NCBI GenBank assembly: GCA_015233395.1 | Contig: JADFXV010000016.1 | Coordinates: 1-47,795 of the forward strand | Direction: 5' to 3' | Length of the DNA: 47,795 nucleotides | Source of the DNA: Desulfovibrionaceae bacterium | Lineage (GTDB): Bacteria; Desulfobacterota; Desulfovibrionia; Desulfovibrionales; Desulfovibrionaceae | Notes under the pieces: model-generated | What the model saw: only the letters and a program-made list of their open reading frames with translations | The model's database searches: none | Told to the model about the DNA's origin: nothing | In this document: positions 15,803 through 46,207 of the stretch, piece after piece | Layout of the letters: every line of letters begins with the position of its first letter | How positions within the stretch are numbered: position 1 is the stretch's first letter | Translations under genes and position numbers: made by a program

Positions 15803-16840
15803 CTACGACGCGACTTCCACCATGGGGTTGGTGAGACCCAGGTGCTCAAGCAGCTTGGCCTCGATCTGCTCGCGCATGGCGGTGTTTTCGCGCAAAAAGT
15901 CGCGCACGTTTTCCCGGCCCTGGCCCAGGCGTTCGCTCCCGAACGAGAACCAGGCGCCGCTTTTGTCCACGATGCCCGCCTCGCTGCCCAGGTCGAGCAG
16001 CTCGCCCTCGCGGGAGATGCCGGTGCCGTACAGGATGTCGAATTGGGCCTCGCGGAAGGGCGGGGCGACCTTGTTCTTGACCACCTTGACCCGGGTGCGG
16101 CTGCCGTAAACCTCTTCCTTGTCCTTGAGCGTCTGGATCTTGCGGATGTCCAGGCGCACCGAAGCGTAGAACTTGAGCGCATGGCCGCCGGTGGTGGTCT
16201 CCGGGTTGCCGTAGCCGGTCATGCCGATCTTCATGCGGATCTGGTTGATGAAGATGACCGAGGTGTGGGATTTGTGGATCGTGCCGGTGAGCTTGCGCAG
16301 GGCGTGGGACATGAGCCTGGCCTGGCCGCCGACCTGGGTTTCGCCCATCTCGCCTTCGAGTTCGGCCTGGGGGATGAGCGCGGCCACCGAGTCGATGACC
16401 ACCACGTCCACGGCGCCGGAGCGCACCAAAAGATCGGCGATGTCGAGCGCCTGCTCGCCGAAATCCGGTTGGGAGATGAGCAGTTCCTCGGTGTTGACGC
16501 CAAGGCGCCTGGCGTACTGGATGTCGAGGGCGTGCTCGGCGTCGATGAAAGCGGCCGTGCCGCCGCGTTTTTGCGCCTCGGCGATGATGTGCAGGGCGAG
16601 CGTGGTCTTGCCCGAGGATTCCGGGCCGTAGATCTCGGTCACCCGCCCGCGCGGAATGCCGCCCACGCCAAGGGCCAGGTTGAGCCCGATCGAGCCGGTG
16701 GGGATGATCGGGATGGCCGCGTGCGCGTCCTGGTCCATGCGCATGACCGAACCGGCGCCGTATTTGCGTTCGATGGTGGACAAGGCGGTGGACAAGGCCT
16801 CGCCGCGCACGTCGACCGGGTTTGCCGTTTTCTTCGCCAT
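15803..16840 (-). CDS. recA: Recombinase RecA
   Basis: 345 residues, normal length. DNA strand-exchange ATPase for homologous recombination and co-protease for SOS repressor cleavage. Start at ATG 16838-16840 ([13 protein letters not shown]), preceded by GGGAGAT; the 18 extra upstream residues in the longer frame are not RecA-like. Walker A is GPESSGKTT at 72-80. Other family segments are [25 protein letters not shown], the L2-loop region [15 protein letters not shown] and the C-terminal LEHLGL. It is followed on the same strand by alaS, with repeat D1 between. Confidence 0.97.
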
Positions 16841-17219
16841 AAAATCTCCCTGGACGCGGCGTTTGCGCGCTCGCCGTCCTGCCGGATGTTGCAAAGCACT
16901 TGGTGTGATTCGGGCCGTCTCCCGGGACCGCCCGGACTGGCCGCCGCCACGAGAAATATCACGAACCGCAAGGCTTCATAGCAAAAGCGCCCTGAACGGG
17001 CAACTTCACACCAGCCTGGAATGTTGGACGATTTTGCCGTCCGGGAACTTTTTTGCGAGGCGAGACGAAAATGTCGCCTCGCCTCGTGGACACGGCCGCC
17101 GGGACGTGCTACGCGAGGAGCAATACGGAAAATCCCCTTGCCCGGGGAATGACCGGCGAGGGCCGGCGCCTCGCCGCTTGCGACCGGCAAAACCATCAAG
17201 ACGCCAAGGAGCGCGGGAC
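16841..17219. other. Divergent control region of recA and the glycogen-binding-type gene
   Basis: 379 bases with no supported gene. Two hairpins are clear: a 9-bp stem at 17055-17063/17074-17082 (GCGAGGCGA / TCGCCTCGC), and an 8-bp stem at 17154-17161/17169-17176 (CGGCGAGG / CCTCGCCG). Neither is followed by a T-run in either direction. They could be mRNA leader structures of the gene at 17220. I could not assign an SOS box or promoter with confidence. Confidence 0.45.
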
Positions 17220-17528
17220 ATGGCCATCACCAAGAAATACCTGAAAAGCAAACCCGAGGTCTGCCGAGTCCGCTTTGAATTTGACGGCGAGGAAGTCGCC
17301 TGCGCCGGCCGCGTGTGCGTGGCCGGGGACTTCAACGGCTGGGACGCCTGCGCCGCGCCCATGACCAAGAAGAAAAATTGTTTCACCTACACCGTGGACC
17401 TGCCCGCCGGCCAGCAATACCGGTTCCGCTACGTCGTGGACGGCCAGACCTGGCATAACGACGCCCAGGCCGACCTTTTCGAAAACAGCGGCCTGGGCGA
17501 CAGCCTCAATTCGGTCATCGCGGTCTAG
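17220..17528 (+). CDS. Stand-alone glycogen-binding-type (CBM48 / early-set) protein
   Basis: 102 residues, cytoplasmic. It begins MAITKKYLKSKPEVCRV and carries the signature VAGDFNGWD followed by an aromatic-rich beta sandwich (YTVDLPAGQQYRFRYVVDG, then TWHND). This is the E-set domain found at the front of glycogen-branching and debranching enzymes and in the beta subunit of AMP kinase, where it binds alpha-glucans. No catalytic domain is attached. It may act as a glycogen-binding adaptor or carry a partner; this is inference. ATG at 17220 follows AAGGAG. No glycogen-metabolism genes are nearby. It converges on the copper ATPase gene. Confidence 0.82.
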   Translation: MAITKKYLKSKPEVCRVRFEFDGEEVACAGRVCVAGDFNGWDACAAPMTKKKNCFTYTVDLPAGQQYRFRYVVDGQTWHNDAQADLFENSGLGDSLNSVIAV

Positions 17529-17542
17529 CCGCGGGAAGAAAA

Positions 17543-17622
17543 GACCAGGGGCGCCTTTTTTGAAAAAAGTTGCCCCCGGACCCCTTCAAAAATTGGGGAG
17601 AAAGGGGGTTTTCCCTCCGGTC
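17543..17622. repeat. Intergenic repeat, family B (copy 1), overlapping the copA 3' end
   Basis: Starts GACCAGGGG, then an inverted repeat around CTTTTTTGAAAAAAG, then CCCCGGACCCCTTCAAAAA, and a GGGG-rich tail. The first 50 or so bases match the start of the element at 26372-26525. It sits between convergent genes, and its right part encodes the last 13 or so residues of the copper ATPase. T-runs on both strands next to the stem suit a bidirectional terminator. Confidence 0.6.
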
Positions 17623-19895
17623 TCCTCTTCCCGCTCCCCGAAAAAGCGCAGTCTCAAGGCGTTGCCCACCACGCTCGCGGAGCTTGCGGCCATGGCCGCG
17701 CCGGCGATCATGGGGTTGAGCGTCGGGCCGCCGAAAAGATGCAGCGCCCCGGCCGCGACCGGGATGAGAATCACGTTGTAGCCAAACGCCCAGAAGAGAT
17801 TTTGCTTGATGTTGCGCACCGTGGCCCGGCTTAAGCTGAGCGCGGTCAGGACGCCGCCGATGCCGCCGCGCAAAAGCACGATGTCGCCGGACTCCATGGC
17901 CACGCCCGAGGCGCCGCCCATGGCCAGGCCGACGTCGGCCAGAGCCAGGGCCGGGGCGTCGTTGATCCCGTCGCCGGCCATGGCCGTGCGCAGTCCCTTG
18001 GCCTGGAAATCCTTGATGATCGCGGCCTTGTCCTCGGGTTTGATCCCGGCGTGGAACTCGGCGATGCCGACGCGCCGCGCCACGGCCCGCGCGGTCGCCG
18101 GATTGTCGCCGGTGAGCATGACCACGCGCAGTCCCAGGGCGGCAAGTTCGGCCACCACCCGGGCCGAGTCCTCGCGCACGGCGTCGGCCACGCCGAGCAC
18201 GGCCCGGGGCGCGCCGTCCACGGCCAGGCACAGCGGGCTTTTGCCGTCTTCGGCCAGACCGGCGACGATGCGCGCGGCCGCCTCCTCGGCGAAACCGGAC
18301 ACGCCCTGGGCGAGCATGTACGCGGGGTTGCCGATCGCCACCCGGCGGCCGTCGACCAGCGCCGCGACCCCGCCGCCCGCTTCGGCCATGAAATCCAGGG
18401 GCGCGGCCGGGGCCAAGCCCTTGTCCTTGGCGGCCCGGGCCACGGCTTCGGCCAGCGGATGCTCCGAGGCCGATTCGGCGCCGGCGGCCAGGCGCAGCAG
18501 TTCGTCTTCGGGGGGGCCGGCGTTCGCGAGCAGGATAAAGTCGGTCAGTTCCGGCTTGCCCTTGGTGAGCGTGCCGGTCTTGTCAAAGCAGATCACCTGC
18601 ACGCCGCACGCGGCCTGCAACGCCGCCCCGTTGCGGAAAAGCACCCCAAGGCGCGCCCCGCGCCCCATGCCGACCATCAGCGAGGCCGGGGTGGCCAGGC
18701 CCATGGCGCAGGGGCAGGCGATGACCATGACCGAGACGAAGATGCGCAGCGAAAAGGCGAAGTCCGCGCCCAGGGCGAGCCACCAGAGAAGCGCCGCGGC
18801 CGTGGCCAGGGCCATGACCGCGGGCACGAACCAGGCGCTGACCGCGTCGGCCAGGTTCGCGATCGGCGCTTTGGAGCCCTGGGCCTCGCTCACCAGGCGC
18901 ACGATCCGGGCCAGGGTGGCGCCTTTGCCCACGCGCAGCGCCCGGATGACCAGCGAACCTTGTCCGTTGAGCGTCCCGGCGGCCAGCTCGTCGCCCGGCC
19001 CCTTGGCCACGGGCATGGACTCCCCGGTGAGCATGGATTCGTCCAGATGCGACGCGCCTTCCACGACCAGCCCGTCCACGGGGACGCGCCCGCCGGGCTT
19101 GACGCGCACCAGATCCCCGATCGAAAGTTCGGCGGCCTTGACCTCGACCTGCTCGCCGCCGCGCACGAGCGTGGCCGTGTCCGGGGCCAGCTCCATGAGC
19201 TCGCGGATGGCCTGGGAGGCGCGCGCCTTGGAGCGGGCCTCGAAGTATTTGCCGAGCGAAATCAGCGCCACGATCACGGCCGCGCTCTCGAAATACAGAT
19301 CGTGGACCATGGCCTCGGGGTCGCGGCCGGTGACGATGAGCGCCGTGCGCCACAGGCTCTGGACAAAGGCCGCGCCCGTGCCCACGGCGATCAGCGAATC
19401 CATGTTCGGCGAAAGCCGCGCCAGCATCGCAAAGCCGCCGGTGTAGAAGCGCCGGCCGATCCACAACACAGGCAGGACGAGGGCCAGTTGGACGAGCGCG
19501 AAGGCCGCCGGGTCGAGCGCCGGATCGATGGCGCCGGGCAGCGGCAGCCCCAGCATGCGGCCCATGGACACAAGGAGCAACAGCCCGGCCAGAACGATTT
19601 GGGGGAAAAGCGAGCGCCTGGTCTTGGCCAGGGCGTCCCGGGCCTGCCGGGCGCGTTCCTCGAAGGCGGCGAAATCGTCGCCCTCGAGAAGCTCGGCCGC
19701 GAAACCGAGGCCGGCGATGGTTTTTTCGATGGCCGCCCAGGTCGTCCGGGCCGGATCGAAGGCGAAACGCCCGGTCTCGTCGGCCAGGTTGACCCGGGCT
19801 TCGCCGACGCCGGGCAGGCCTCCGACCACGCGCTCGATGCGGCCGGAACAGGCGGCGCAATGCATGCCCTTGATGGCGGCCTGGACTTTTTCCAT
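17586..19895 (-). CDS. copA: Copper-exporting P-type ATPase CopA
   Basis: 769 residues, inner membrane. It pumps Cu(I) out of the cytoplasm with ATP. There is one N-terminal heavy-metal domain with GMHCAACSG (Cys13, Cys16). The actuator domain has MLTGES. The intramembrane metal site is ACPCAMGLATPA near residue 393. Phosphorylation motif DKTGTLT is near 437, the nucleotide-binding His motif is SEHPLAEAV, then LTGDNPATA and GDGINDAPALALADVG near 643. Eight membrane segments are expected. The final residues (EEETGGKTPFLPNF) are encoded inside an intergenic repeat, so the ancestral C-terminus was probably shorter. It is third in a minus-strand set behind two small genes, 22 bases after the last. 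Confidence 0.95.
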   Translation of the reverse strand: MEKVQAAIKGMHCAACSGRIERVVGGLPGVGEARVNLADETGRFAFDPARTTWAAIEKTIAGLGFAAELLEGDDFAAFEERARQARDALAKTRRSLFPQIVLAGLLLLVSMGRMLGLPLPGAIDPALDPAAFALVQLALVLPVLWIGRRFYTGGFAMLARLSPNMDSLIAVGTGAAFVQSLWRTALIVTGRDPEAMVHDLYFESAAVIVALISLGKYFEARSKARASQAIRELMELAPDTATLVRGGEQVEVKAAELSIGDLVRVKPGGRVPVDGLVVEGASHLDESMLTGESMPVAKGPGDELAAGTLNGQGSLVIRALRVGKGATLARIVRLVSEAQGSKAPIANLADAVSAWFVPAVMALATAAALLWWLALGADFAFSLRIFVSVMVIACPCAMGLATPASLMVGMGRGARLGVLFRNGAALQAACGVQVICFDKTGTLTKGKPELTDFILLANAGPPEDELLRLAAGAESASEHPLAEAVARAAKDKGLAPAAPLDFMAEAGGGVAALVDGRRVAIGNPAYMLAQGVSGFAEEAAARIVAGLAEDGKSPLCLAVDGAPRAVLGVADAVREDSARVVAELAALGLRVVMLTGDNPATARAVARRVGIAEFHAGIKPEDKAAIIKDFQAKGLRTAMAGDGINDAPALALADVGLAMGGASGVAMESGDIVLLRGGIGGVLTALSLSRATVRNIKQNLFWAFGYNVILIPVAAGALHLFGGPTLNPMIAGAAMAASSASVVGNALRLRFFGEREEETGGKTPFLPNF

Positions 19896-24549: not shown

Positions 24550-25650
24550 ATGGGCGGATTTTTTCGATTGTTTGATTATTGGCCCCGGGGACGCGGCAAG
24601 GTCGAACTGGTCAGGACGGTCAAAGCGGCCGGCTGAGCCGCCAAGATCACTCCGGGGGACCTGGAGGAAGTTTTGAGCGGGCTCGACTGGCCGCAAGACG
24701 AGCGCCTGCTGACCGGTCTTCGCGACAGCGAAGACGCCGCCGTGGTGCGTTTTCCGGCCGGCAAGGCCCTGGTCCAGACGCTCGATTTTTTCACCCCCAT
24801 CGTCAACGACCCCTACCGCTTCGGGCAGATCGCCGCCGCCAATTCGCTCTCCGACGTCTACGCCATGGGCGGCGAACCCTACACGGCCATGAACATCATC
24901 TGCTTTCCGGCCAGGAAGCTGCCCAAAACCGCGCTCACGGAGATCCTGCGCGGAGGCCTGTCCAAGGTCGTCGAGGCCGGCGCGGTCATGGCCGGCGGCC
25001 ACAGCGTCGAGGACAATGAGGTCAAGTACGGCCTGTCCGTGACCGGCGTCGTCGACCCCGGCCGCTTCGCCTCCAACCGGGGGCTGGCCCCGGGAGACGC
25101 GCTGATCCTGACCAAGGCGCTCGGCACGGGCGTGCTGGCCACGGCCATCAAGACCGGCGCGGGCGATCCGGCCGCGCTGGAGGAATTGCTCTGGGCGAGC
25201 GCCTCGCGTTTGAGCCGCGCCGGCGGCCGGGCGATCGCGGACCTTTCCCTGCGCGGCGCCACGGACGTGACCGGCTTCGGCCTGGCCGGACACGTTCTGG
25301 AAATGGCCCGGGCCTCGGGCATGGCGGTGGATTTGGATTTGGCCGGGCTCCCGGCGCTGGGACCGGCGCTGGACTTGATCCGTAGCGGCAAGGTGCCGGT
25401 CGTGGGCAAAAACAACCGCAATTTCTGCTCGAACGCGGTCGCAATCGCGAGAGACGCCGATCCGGCGCGCGTCGATCTGGCTTTTGATCCCCAAACCTCG
25501 GGCGGCTTGGTGCTGGCCGCGCCGCAAGACAAGATCGAGGCCGTCCGCGCCATGCTGACCCAGGCCGGAGACTTGGCCGCGATCGTCGGCCGCGTGACCG
25601 GGCCGCACGAAGGCGGCCGGGGACACGGGACGGTGAGGCTGCTGGCGTAA
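24550..25650 (+). CDS. selD: Selenide, water dikinase SelD, selenocysteine-containing
   Basis: 366 residues if the in-frame TGA at 24634-24636 is read as selenocysteine (residue 29). It makes selenophosphate from selenide and ATP for Sec-tRNA synthesis. Upstream of the TGA the frame reads VELVRTVKAAG, and after it AAKITPGDLEEVLSGL. Together this is the family active-site segment AAG(C/U)AAK, with Lys32 as the conserved lysine. Further on, DAAVVRF, DFFTPIVNDPY, IAAANSLSDVYAMGG and AGGHSVEDNEVKYG bind ATP and metal. ATG at 24550 follows GAGGG. A conventional call would start at the TTG at 24673 and lose the active site. A SECIS-like hairpin lies at 24650-24666. Confidence 0.93.
24650..24666 (+). 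promoter_or_regulatory. Candidate bacterial SECIS element in selD
   Basis: CTCCGGG-GGA-CCTGGAG can form a 7-bp stem (one G-U pair) with a G-rich apical loop. The loop is centred about 24 bases after the UGA, within the distance used by bacterial SECIS elements that bind SelB. Recognition of this loop by SelB is inferred; no selB gene is in the window. Confidence 0.6.
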
Positions 25651-43144: not shown

Positions 43145-46100
43145 ATGTCACAACGATGCGGCCATCCTCATCGACCTTGCCGCCTCGTGGGAGCCGGGCG
43201 CATCGCGGCGCTCGCTTGCCTGACGCTGGCCGCCGCCTGGCTGCTCACTGCCGGGCGCGCCCTGGCGGCCGAGTTCAAGATCGGCGCCCTGGCCAATCGC
43301 GACGACGCCATTTGCCGGGAGCAATGGGGGCCGACCGTCGACTACTTGCGAACCGCCCTGCCGGGCCATTCCTTCAGCCTCGTCCCCCTGCCCTTCGACC
43401 GGATCATCGCCGCCGTGGCCGCCTCGGAAGTCGATTTCATCATCCTCAACCCCTCGTTCTACATCGAGCTTGAAACGCGCTTCGGAACCACCCGCCTGGC
43501 CTCCTCGCGCAACAACATTCTGGGCAAGGAAACCTCCTCGTACGGCGGGGTCGTTTTTTTCAAGGCCGGCCGCAGCGACATCCAGCAACTTACGGACCTG
43601 CGCGGCAAACGGTTCGTGGCCGCCGACGCATATTCGCTCGGCGGCTGGCACGCCGCCTGGCTGGAGCTTCAGAAGGCCGGAATCAATCCGTTCAAGGATT
43701 TCGCCTCCATGCGTTTCAGCGGCAGCCACGACGCGGCGGTCCGGGCCGTGCTGGACGGCTTGGCCGACGCCGGCACGGTGCGCACGGACACGCTCGAGCG
43801 CATGCAGGCCGAAGGCAAAATCGACCTGAGCCTGCTGCGGACCCTGCCCTGTCCGGAGGCGGAGCCCGCGTGCGGCGTCTTCCCGTTCCTGCTGAGCACG
43901 CGCCTGTATCCGGAATGGCCCCTGGCCAAGCTCGCCCACGTCCCGGACGACGCGGCCAGGGAAGTGGCCGCCGCCCTGCTGACCATGCCCTTGCATCCGG
44001 CGCGGGAGGCCGGGGAGACCACCCGCGCCTGGAACGTTCCCGCGGGCTACGAACCGGTCCGCGACCTGCTGCGGGCGCTTCGCCTGCCGCCTTTTCAGGA
44101 CTACGGCAGGATCACCGTCGCCGACGTCTTCAGGAACTACTGGCCGATCATCGTCCTGATCGCGGTCAGCGGCGCCGGCGGCCTGCTCACGCTGATCGTG
44201 GTCAGCGTCTTAAACGTCAAGCTCAAGAAATCGCGCCAGGAGCTGCAGCGCGAACTCGACGCCCGGGCGGCGGCGGAAAAACGCATCCGCGAACGCGAGG
44301 CGCGTATCCGCTCCCTGCTCAACGCCACCACGGACTCGGTTTTTCTGCTCGACCGCGCGGGCGTGATCCTGGATTTGAACGAGGTCGCGGCCAAGCGGCG
44401 CAACCTCTCGCCGGCCGAACTCGCCGGCAAGATCCTTTACGACACCCTGCCCCCGCAAGCGGCGGACGCGCGGCGGGCGGCGGTCGAGGCCGTCCTGCGC
44501 ACCGGCGAAGCCGCCTTCGGCGAAGAGGAGCGCCATGGCCGGTTCTACAACCTGCGCATCTGGCCGATCTTCGACGACCACGGCGAGGTGGCCCAACTGG
44601 CCAGCTATTCGCGCGACGTGACCGACTACAAGCTGTCGGAGCAAAGCGCCCGGGAAAACGAGGAGAAATACCGCACCGTCGCCGATTTCACCTACGACTG
44701 GGAATACTGGCTCGGCCCCGACGGGCGTTACCGGTTCGTGTCCCCGGCCTGCAAGGAGATCACCGGGCACGAGGCGGCCGAATTTTTTGAGGACCCCGAG
44801 CTGTTGCACCGGCTGCTCCATCCCGAGGACCGGGGCAAGATGCTCGATCACCTCAAGCAGGCCATCGCCGGCGCGGGCCAGGAATGCGAGATGGACTTCC
44901 GCATCGTGAGGCCAGACGGCGAAATCCGCTGGATCGCCCACAAATGCCGCCCCATCCGCCGCGACGACGGCACCTTTCTCGGCCAGCGCGGCAGCAACCG
45001 CGACATCACCGCCCGCAAGCAGATCGAAGCGGAAGTCGCCGACCTCAAGAATCTGATGCAAAACATCTTCGACTCCATGCCCTCGATCCTGGTCGGAGTG
45101 GACGGCCAAGGACGGGTGACGCACTGGAACAGCCCGGCGGCCGCAGCCGCGGGCATGCCCTTTTCCCAGGCCAAAGACCGGCCCGTCGGCGACGTCCTGC
45201 CCTTGATCCGGGACGAATGCGTCAATATCGACGCGGCCATCCGGGACCTGCGCGTTTACAAAGTGACCAAGAGGATCATGAACGAGGGGAGCGAAGCGGC
45301 GCACCAGGAGATCACCATCTACCCCCTGGCCGGCGGCGGCGCCTCGGGCGCGGTCATCCGCATCGACGACGTCACCGAGCGCGCCCGGCTGGAAGAGATG
45401 ATGATCCAGAGCGAAAAGATGATGTCCATCGGCGGGCTGGCCGCGGGCATGGCCCACGAAATCAACAACCCGCTCGGCATCATCCTCCAGGCCGCCCAGA
45501 ACGCCATGCGCCGCATCTCGCCCGCGCTCGTCTCCAACCTGCAGACCGCAAGCGATTTGGGCGTCGACTTCGCCCATGTCACCGCCTATCTGGAGCGGCG
45601 CAAGATCACGGAGTACCTCGCCGACATCAACGAGGCCGGGCTTCGGGCCTCCAAGATCGTGCAGAGCATGCTCAATTTCAGCCGCCGCAGCCAGTCGCGG
45701 CGGGCGCTGCACGGCCTGGCCGCGCTTCTGGACAAGACCGTGGAGCTGGCCAGAAGCGACTACGACCTGAAAAAGAACTACGACATCAAAAAAATCAAGA
45801 TCGTCACCGACTACGATCCCGGCGACCCGAAAGGCTACTTCGTGGAAACCGAAATCGAGCAGGTCTTTTTGAACATCATCAAGAACGCGGCCCAGGCCAT
45901 GGCGGCCAAGACCTATCCGCCCCCCGAGGAGCCGACCGTGACCCTGCGCACGCGGCGCGACGGCGAACGCGTCCTGATCGACGTCGAAGACAACGGCCCG
46001 GGCATGGACGAGGCCACCGGCAAGCGCGTGCTGGAGCCATTCTTCACCACCAAGGCCACCGGCCGGGGCACGGGGCTCGGGCTCTCGGTGACCTATTTCA

Positions 46101-46207
46101 TCGTCACCAACAACTACGGCGGGGAAATCCATATCGCCTCCGAGCCCGGCCGCGGCGCCCGCTTCAGAGTCGTTTTGCCCCTCGGGAAGGCCGGCGATGC
46201 AATCTGA
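43145..46207 (+). CDS. Hybrid-input sensor histidine kinase: PhnD-like periplasmic domain, TM, three PAS domains
   Basis: 1020 residues. A signal/anchor segment (about 17-42) leads to a periplasmic phosphonate-binding-like domain (about 44-310; EFKIGALANRDD, VDFIILNPSFYIE, GKRFVAADAYSLGGW). TtrS-type sensors use this fold to bind small ligands. A membrane helix at about 333-356 follows, then a coiled linker and three PAS domains starting near 385, 500 and 635. The HisKA motif MAHEINNPLG places the phosphoacceptor at His771. The ATPase has NIIKNAAQAM (near 910), DNGPGMDEA and GTGLGLSV (near 976). It overlaps the next gene by 11 bases, so it is coupled to its receiver. The ligand is unknown. 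Confidence 0.9.
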   Translation: MSQRCGHPHRPCRLVGAGRIAALACLTLAAAWLLTAGRALAAEFKIGALANRDDAICREQWGPTVDYLRTALPGHSFSLVPLPFDRIIAAVAASEVDFIILNPSFYIELETRFGTTRLASSRNNILGKETSSYGGVVFFKAGRSDIQQLTDLRGKRFVAADAYSLGGWHAAWLELQKAGINPFKDFASMRFSGSHDAAVRAVLDGLADAGTVRTDTLERMQAEGKIDLSLLRTLPCPEAEPACGVFPFLLSTRLYPEWPLAKLAHVPDDAAREVAAALLTMPLHPAREAGETTRAWNVPAGYEPVRDLLRALRLPPFQDYGRITVADVFRNYWPIIVLIAVSGAGGLLTLIVVSVLNVKLKKSRQELQRELDARAAAEKRIREREARIRSLLNATTDSVFLLDRAGVILDLNEVAAKRRNLSPAELAGKILYDTLPPQAADARRAAVEAVLRTGEAAFGEEERHGRFYNLRIWPIFDDHGEVAQLASYSRDVTDYKLSEQSARENEEKYRTVADFTYDWEYWLGPDGRYRFVSPACKEITGHEAAEFFEDPELLHRLLHPEDRGKMLDHLKQAIAGAGQECEMDFRIVRPDGEIRWIAHKCRPIRRDDGTFLGQRGSNRDITARKQIEAEVADLKNLMQNIFDSMPSILVGVDGQGRVTHWNSPAAAAAGMPFSQAKDRPVGDVLPLIRDECVNIDAAIRDLRVYKVTKRIMNEGSEAAHQEITIYPLAGGGASGAVIRIDDVTERARLEEMMIQSEKMMSIGGLAAGMAHEINNPLGIILQAAQNAMRRISPALVSNLQTASDLGVDFAHVTAYLERRKITEYLADINEAGLRASKIVQSMLNFSRRSQSRRALHGLAALLDKTVELARSDYDLKKNYDIKKIKIVTDYDPGDPKGYFVETEIEQVFLNIIKNAAQAMAAKTYPPPEEPTVTLRTRRDGERVLIDVEDNGPGMDEATGKRVLEPFFTTKATGRGTGLGLSVTYFIVTNNYGGEIHIASEPGRGARFRVVLPLGKAGDAI

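Follow-up and report, generated by a model that had tools for sequence, protein, structure and literature searches.

A selD gene with an in-frame UGA that very probably encodes selenocysteine in a Desulfovibrionaceae bacterium

Our results indicate that the stop-like UGA within the selD gene of this Desulfovibrionaceae bacterium very probably encodes selenocysteine (Sec), as judged from the sequence and its relatives. The reading frame, the conservation of both the UGA and the hairpin behind it, and the presence in the same genome of SelA, SelB, tRNA-Sec and another gene that has a UGA in frame are directly established. Taken as a whole, we consider it almost certain that the gene specifies a Sec-type SelD, that its UGA would be decoded by means of SelB and the hairpin, and that the product would feed its own synthesis.

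The window, i.e. the whole stretch of 47,795 nucleotides that was analysed, holds selD on its plus strand (Table 1). As originally noted, the frame that opens at ATG 24550 runs through TGA 24634-24636, its single interruption, and ends with TAA 25648-25650. The peptide context at the UGA is KAAG-U-AAK. With U treated as C by the profile and search programs, the read-through protein reached 327.6 bits with TIGR00476, a SelD model with a cut-off of 125, and 279.4 with PRK00943, a narrower SelD model, which is under that model's own cut-off of 299. Its best relatives of solved structure are SelD proteins, namely 2yye/2zod and 3u0o from E. coli. The match to the SelD active site that had been claimed around the UGA is borne out by the alignment with 3u0o, where residue 29 (UGA) falls on Cys17 and Lys32 on Lys20. 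Both the Cys/Sec and the Lys of the N-terminal loop are present in the window SelD (U29, K32), and we take these two positions to be catalytic residues. It had also been expected that standard gene calling would truncate the gene; this holds for the mechanical ORF list (table 11), in which the ORF begins at TTG 24673 and its 325 amino acids come without the catalytic segment. No ATG other than 24550 lies in this frame in the interval from the last upstream stop to the UGA. Since TTG 24568 is an alternative start candidate, and since the SelD matches of most relatives begin only at about residue 13-20 of the window protein, the exact N-terminus should be regarded as a prediction. No sigma-70-like promoter was found on the plus strand between 24380 and 25800, a result that weighs little.

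Table 1. Features of the selD region, with positions numbered from the first letter of the window
Feature	Position	Strand	Basis or detail
selD, selenide water dikinase, 366 aa, one UGA read through	24550..25650	+	TIGR00476, Pfam AIRS and AIRS_C, translation
In-frame UGA, predicted selenocysteine 29	24634..24636	+	Alignment with Cys17 of E. coli SelD (3u0o), conservation
Standard-code ORF, 325 aa, TTG start	24673..25650	+	Table 11 ORF list
Core of predicted bacterial SECIS hairpin	24650..24666	+	Stem 24650-24656 / 24660-24666, loop GGA 24657-24659
Longer predicted fold with lower stem adjoining the UGA	24635..24684	+	Folding of window sequence

Elsewhere in the window, a RecA gene (15803-16894, minus strand) is followed by an ORF with a glycogen-binding-type domain (16656-17528, plus strand), and this in turn by a P-type ATPase with a heavy-metal domain (17586-19895, minus strand). 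A single ORF at 43145-46207 encodes a histidine kinase that combines PAS domains with a periplasmic binding domain of the phosphonate type at its N-terminus. Between 389 and 7462, eight ORFs of 168-446 aa on the minus strand had no Pfam match at E <= 1e-5.

A 7-bp hairpin with a G-containing loop had been placed about 24 bases past the UGA. Our analysis recovers it, with a 7-bp stem, a 3-nt loop (GGA) separated from the UGA by 20 nt, and a loop centre that lies 24 nt past the UGA's first base. For the 52 nt of 24634-24685 the predicted folding energy is -27.6 kcal/mol (z -4.14), and none of 200 dinucleotide shuffles folded equally well; the lower part of the longer fold (24635-24684) differs among relatives. 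The 21-nt hairpin region has an energy of -10.8 kcal/mol; 5 of 500 synonymous recodings reached this value, as did 12 of 2000 when the test was repeated. Published bSECIS limits, taken from the legend to figure 2 of PMC13188914, are a loop of 3-9 nt and a stem of 4-16 bp, a G in the first two loop positions, a UGA-to-loop distance of 16-37 nt and an energy of at most -7.5 kcal/mol. In the bSECIS-type folding check that had been proposed, the window hairpin (GGA, 20 nt, -10.8 kcal/mol) lies inside all four limits taken from this source. Rfam searched at gathering scores gave no match within the window.

Relatives were searched in 59 genomes of the order, the window's own included. Among the 52 that yielded the relevant part of the gene (again with the window), 51 have UGA at this codon of selD, and G007 alone has TGC; one of the UGA-type genes (G016) was matched as two pieces. 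A SelD match was absent from four of the 59 genomes (G005, G009, G029 and G050), G034 gave weak SelD matches only, and G013 and G053 have SelD fragments without the N-terminus, and hence stand outside the 52 counted. A wider search of the order covered 247 genomes at least 90% complete, of which 217 matched; of the 150 matches listed, 147 hold a TGA somewhere inside, and the stop-free SelD genes among them are those of G007, G116 and G109. In named public genomes we found 49 SelD loci: 16 with UGA (L048-L063), 32 with Cys (L064-L096 without L084) and one unassigned (L084). Comparison with homologues, which had been suggested as a way to challenge the original prediction, found the same UGA in relatives, conserved codons just before it, and an adjacent upstream segment continuous with its homologues. 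A maximum-likelihood tree built from 100 SelD proteins places the window protein amid UGA-type genes from its family and order; in the same tree two Mailhella sequences (Desulfovibrionaceae) are placed among genomes of the window's family, which points to a host in or near Desulfovibrionaceae.

Some matches held more than one stop codon. Two TGAs in G006, and also two in the G177 match of the wider search, raised the possibility of a double-Sec SelD. It was rejected for G006, where a single UGA occurs in the 330 codons that start with the Sec codon and the other lies upstream. Another match (L105, G057:C205:3785-4792) contains one TGA and one TAA, and may represent a broken gene, an assembly error, or a TAA outside the coding part.

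Because the hairpin lies in a coding stretch, synonymous recodings were used as control. The 21-nt region of each gene was compared with 500 recodings drawn from that gene's own codon use, and the control was counted as passed when at most 25 of the 500 folded equally well; L084 was left out, its motif not being found. Sixty-five of 67 UGA-type genes passed (mean z -3.34) and two failed. Of the 33 Cys-type genes (mean z 0.06), that of G007 alone passed. The comparison should be read with some caution insofar as the Cys-type controls are mostly from Burkholderiales and of other descent than the order's UGA-type genes. The hairpin accompanies the UGA in nearly all genes tested, and the synonymous-codon control rules out that it is a mere by-product of a conserved protein motif. 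Covariation was assessed in the 51 of the 67 UGA-type sequences that belong to the order, in a gapless alignment. Standard pairs make up 96.1% of the stem pair cells; four of the seven stem pairs change on both sides, two are invariant and one varies on one side only. For each of five covariation measures, 0 of 500 shuffles reached the observed value. When the stem partner was slid by 1-3 columns, pairing fell to 18.8-59.7%. Three pairs changing on both sides were nevertheless obtained at slides of -1 and -2, so that this measure separates weakly. Since the sequences are related, the hairpin and covariation counts are not independent and should not be taken as probabilities.

The Cys-type genes of the order add a further aspect. 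In a tree of 22 rows G007, G116 and G109 form one group (100/99), which adjoins a UGA-type gene (88/89). The TGC-type SelD of G007 (L104, G007:C1:1158075-1159388) is nested among UGA-type genes and retains an intact SECIS-like hairpin (6 of 2000 synonymous recodings equally good), whereas the hairpin is gone in the TGC-type genes of G116 (L133, 871 of 2000) and G109 (L134, 628 of 2000). The simplest reading is that Cys replaced Sec once and that the hairpin outlived this change on one branch. The G007 genome gave no match to SelA and none to MnmH; the top-scoring hit of the tRNA-Sec model there (47.9 bits, cut-off 47) is a tRNA-Ser according to ARAGORN, and YqeB lies about 16 kb from selD. The G007 SelD has the look of an orphan that retains a SECIS remnant, and fits the orphan-SelD pattern described in PMC2276186.

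SelA, SelB and tRNA-Sec are all encoded in the window's genome, a draft of 3.37 Mb spread over 158 contigs and 98.9% complete. It contains one SelA (612 bits, cut-off 267.9), one SelB over the cut-off of 242.25 (340.5 bits, with Pfam SelB-wing_2 and SelB-wing_3) and one tRNA-Sec (85.7 bits, cut-off 47; anticodon TCA), the latter on a different contig from the window. The tRNA-Sec cut-off was also reached or exceeded at two further sites, both of them tRNA-Ser genes; within the window ARAGORN detected no tRNA. The Sec-decoding trait is complete, with selA, selB and selC (the tRNA-Sec reading UCA) in one genome, just as had been predicted from the selD gene. Moreover, the genome encodes formate dehydrogenase alpha subunits at two loci (L119, G000:C65:31079-34090, and L120, G000:C119:849-3863), one with and one without an in-frame TGA; the TGA stands in the context ARI-U-HSAT and is followed by a hairpin with the loop GGC. 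At E <= 0.001 the genome gave no match to the selenouridine marker MnmH/YbbB (TIGR03167), nor to YqeB (TIGR03309), the marker for selenium-dependent molybdenum hydroxylases. Consequently, the Sec route is the only selenophosphate consumer with a marker found in this genome.

Across the order set, SelA was detected in 50 of 59 genomes. Five genomes have a UGA-type SelD without a SelA match (G011, G021, G026, G045 and G049); four of these are 67-84% complete, and G045 is 94% complete. SelA is present and a SelD match absent in G009 (99% complete), G029 (64%) and G050 (97%). Gaps in the drafts probably account for these misfits. In G009, SelA and a tRNA-Sec with anticodon TCA occur without a SelD match, which would point to an assembly gap or an unusual SelD.

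Knowledge of the pathway leads us to infer Sec insertion and enzyme activity as follows. SelB, bound to the predicted SECIS behind the UGA, would deliver Sec-tRNA(Sec) to the ribosome, and the UGA would be translated as selenocysteine 29 within the selenium-binding loop of SelD. The finished enzyme would convert selenide and ATP to selenophosphate, which SelA would use to form Sec-tRNA(Sec); this, in turn, would be required for SelD itself and for at least one UGA-type formate dehydrogenase. A second SelD able to prime the loop was sought in the same genome, and the SelD search gave one match only. Given a single match in a genome 98.9% complete, SelD probably depends on its own product, and the self-dependence that had been claimed stands at that strength.

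Two explanations would do away with recoding altogether. The TGA could be a sequencing error or a disabling mutation, i.e. the mark of a pseudogene, a concern that a draft assembly of 158 contigs invites. However, UGA stands at this codon in 51 of the 52 genomes of the order that yielded this part of selD, this one included, and the remaining frame is open and conserved; conservation in practice refutes this explanation, and we give it practically no credence. Alternatively, the UGA might be a true stop, with a shorter SelD made from TTG 24673 and the upstream segment serving as a leader. The shorter ORF does by itself reach 302.6 bits against the SelD model, but it would be devoid of the segment carrying the catalytic residue, and conservation extends to the codons that precede the UGA as well as to the hairpin after it. 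In addition, where the UGA is absent from a listed match of the order, as it is in three genes, the codon is TGC, and hence Cys. Termination at the UGA is accordingly an extremely improbable account of the gene, and selenocysteine remains our interpretation.

A further proposal would add to Sec insertion rather than replace it. Misreading of UGA, and the use of sulfur instead of selenium, are known elsewhere. Some other tRNA might sometimes read the UGA, such that a partly active SelD primes the loop and Sec is inserted when selenium is present. The finding of a single SelD does raise the question of how the loop starts, but SelD inherited at cell division would presumably suffice, and we regard priming by another tRNA as quite improbable. 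Because the only SelD found is very probably a selenoprotein, and a marker was found for no selenophosphate consumer other than the Sec route, one could also imagine that the SelD loop acts as an all-or-none selenium switch, which we think unlikely. If it were true, cells in which SelD had been diluted out would make no selenoproteins until readthrough by another tRNA restarted the loop. The wider interest of the Sec-type selD described here is limited to these matters, i.e. the start-up and regulation of a SelD that needs its own product.

In conclusion, correct reading of this selD requires UGA recoding, and the order offers a clear comparative case of a known mechanism. The window selD is a correct annotation of a known arrangement, common to most of the relatives examined, and its implied novelty is small, since Sec-containing SelD of Desulfovibrio has been in print since 2006 (PMC1794560). 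Table 3 of that paper counts SelD as a selenoprotein in both Desulfovibrio vulgaris and D. desulfuricans, in keeping with the existence of Sec-SelD as originally stated; the likeness to the window SelD lies in this listing, and no difference is known. The same paper reports that Sec has changed to Cys in SelD, and that an FdhA and a HesB-like protein, both of Cys type, have kept remnant SECIS-like hairpins (PMC1794560). A survey of SelD in 8263 prokaryote genomes states that Sec was encoded by 19% of the SelD genes found in a reference set of 223, always at the same position, and that the bacterial SECIS of Sec-SelD was recovered computationally (PMC4561486). Compared with the bSECIS model of PMC13188914, the window hairpin presents no difference, its loop being at the short end of the range. 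The SelD proteins of 2yye/2zod and of E. coli (3u0o) belong to the same family as the window SelD. The E. coli gene, however, has a Cys codon where the window selD has UGA, and its protein has a second cysteine, Cys19, at the position occupied by Ala31 in the window SelD.
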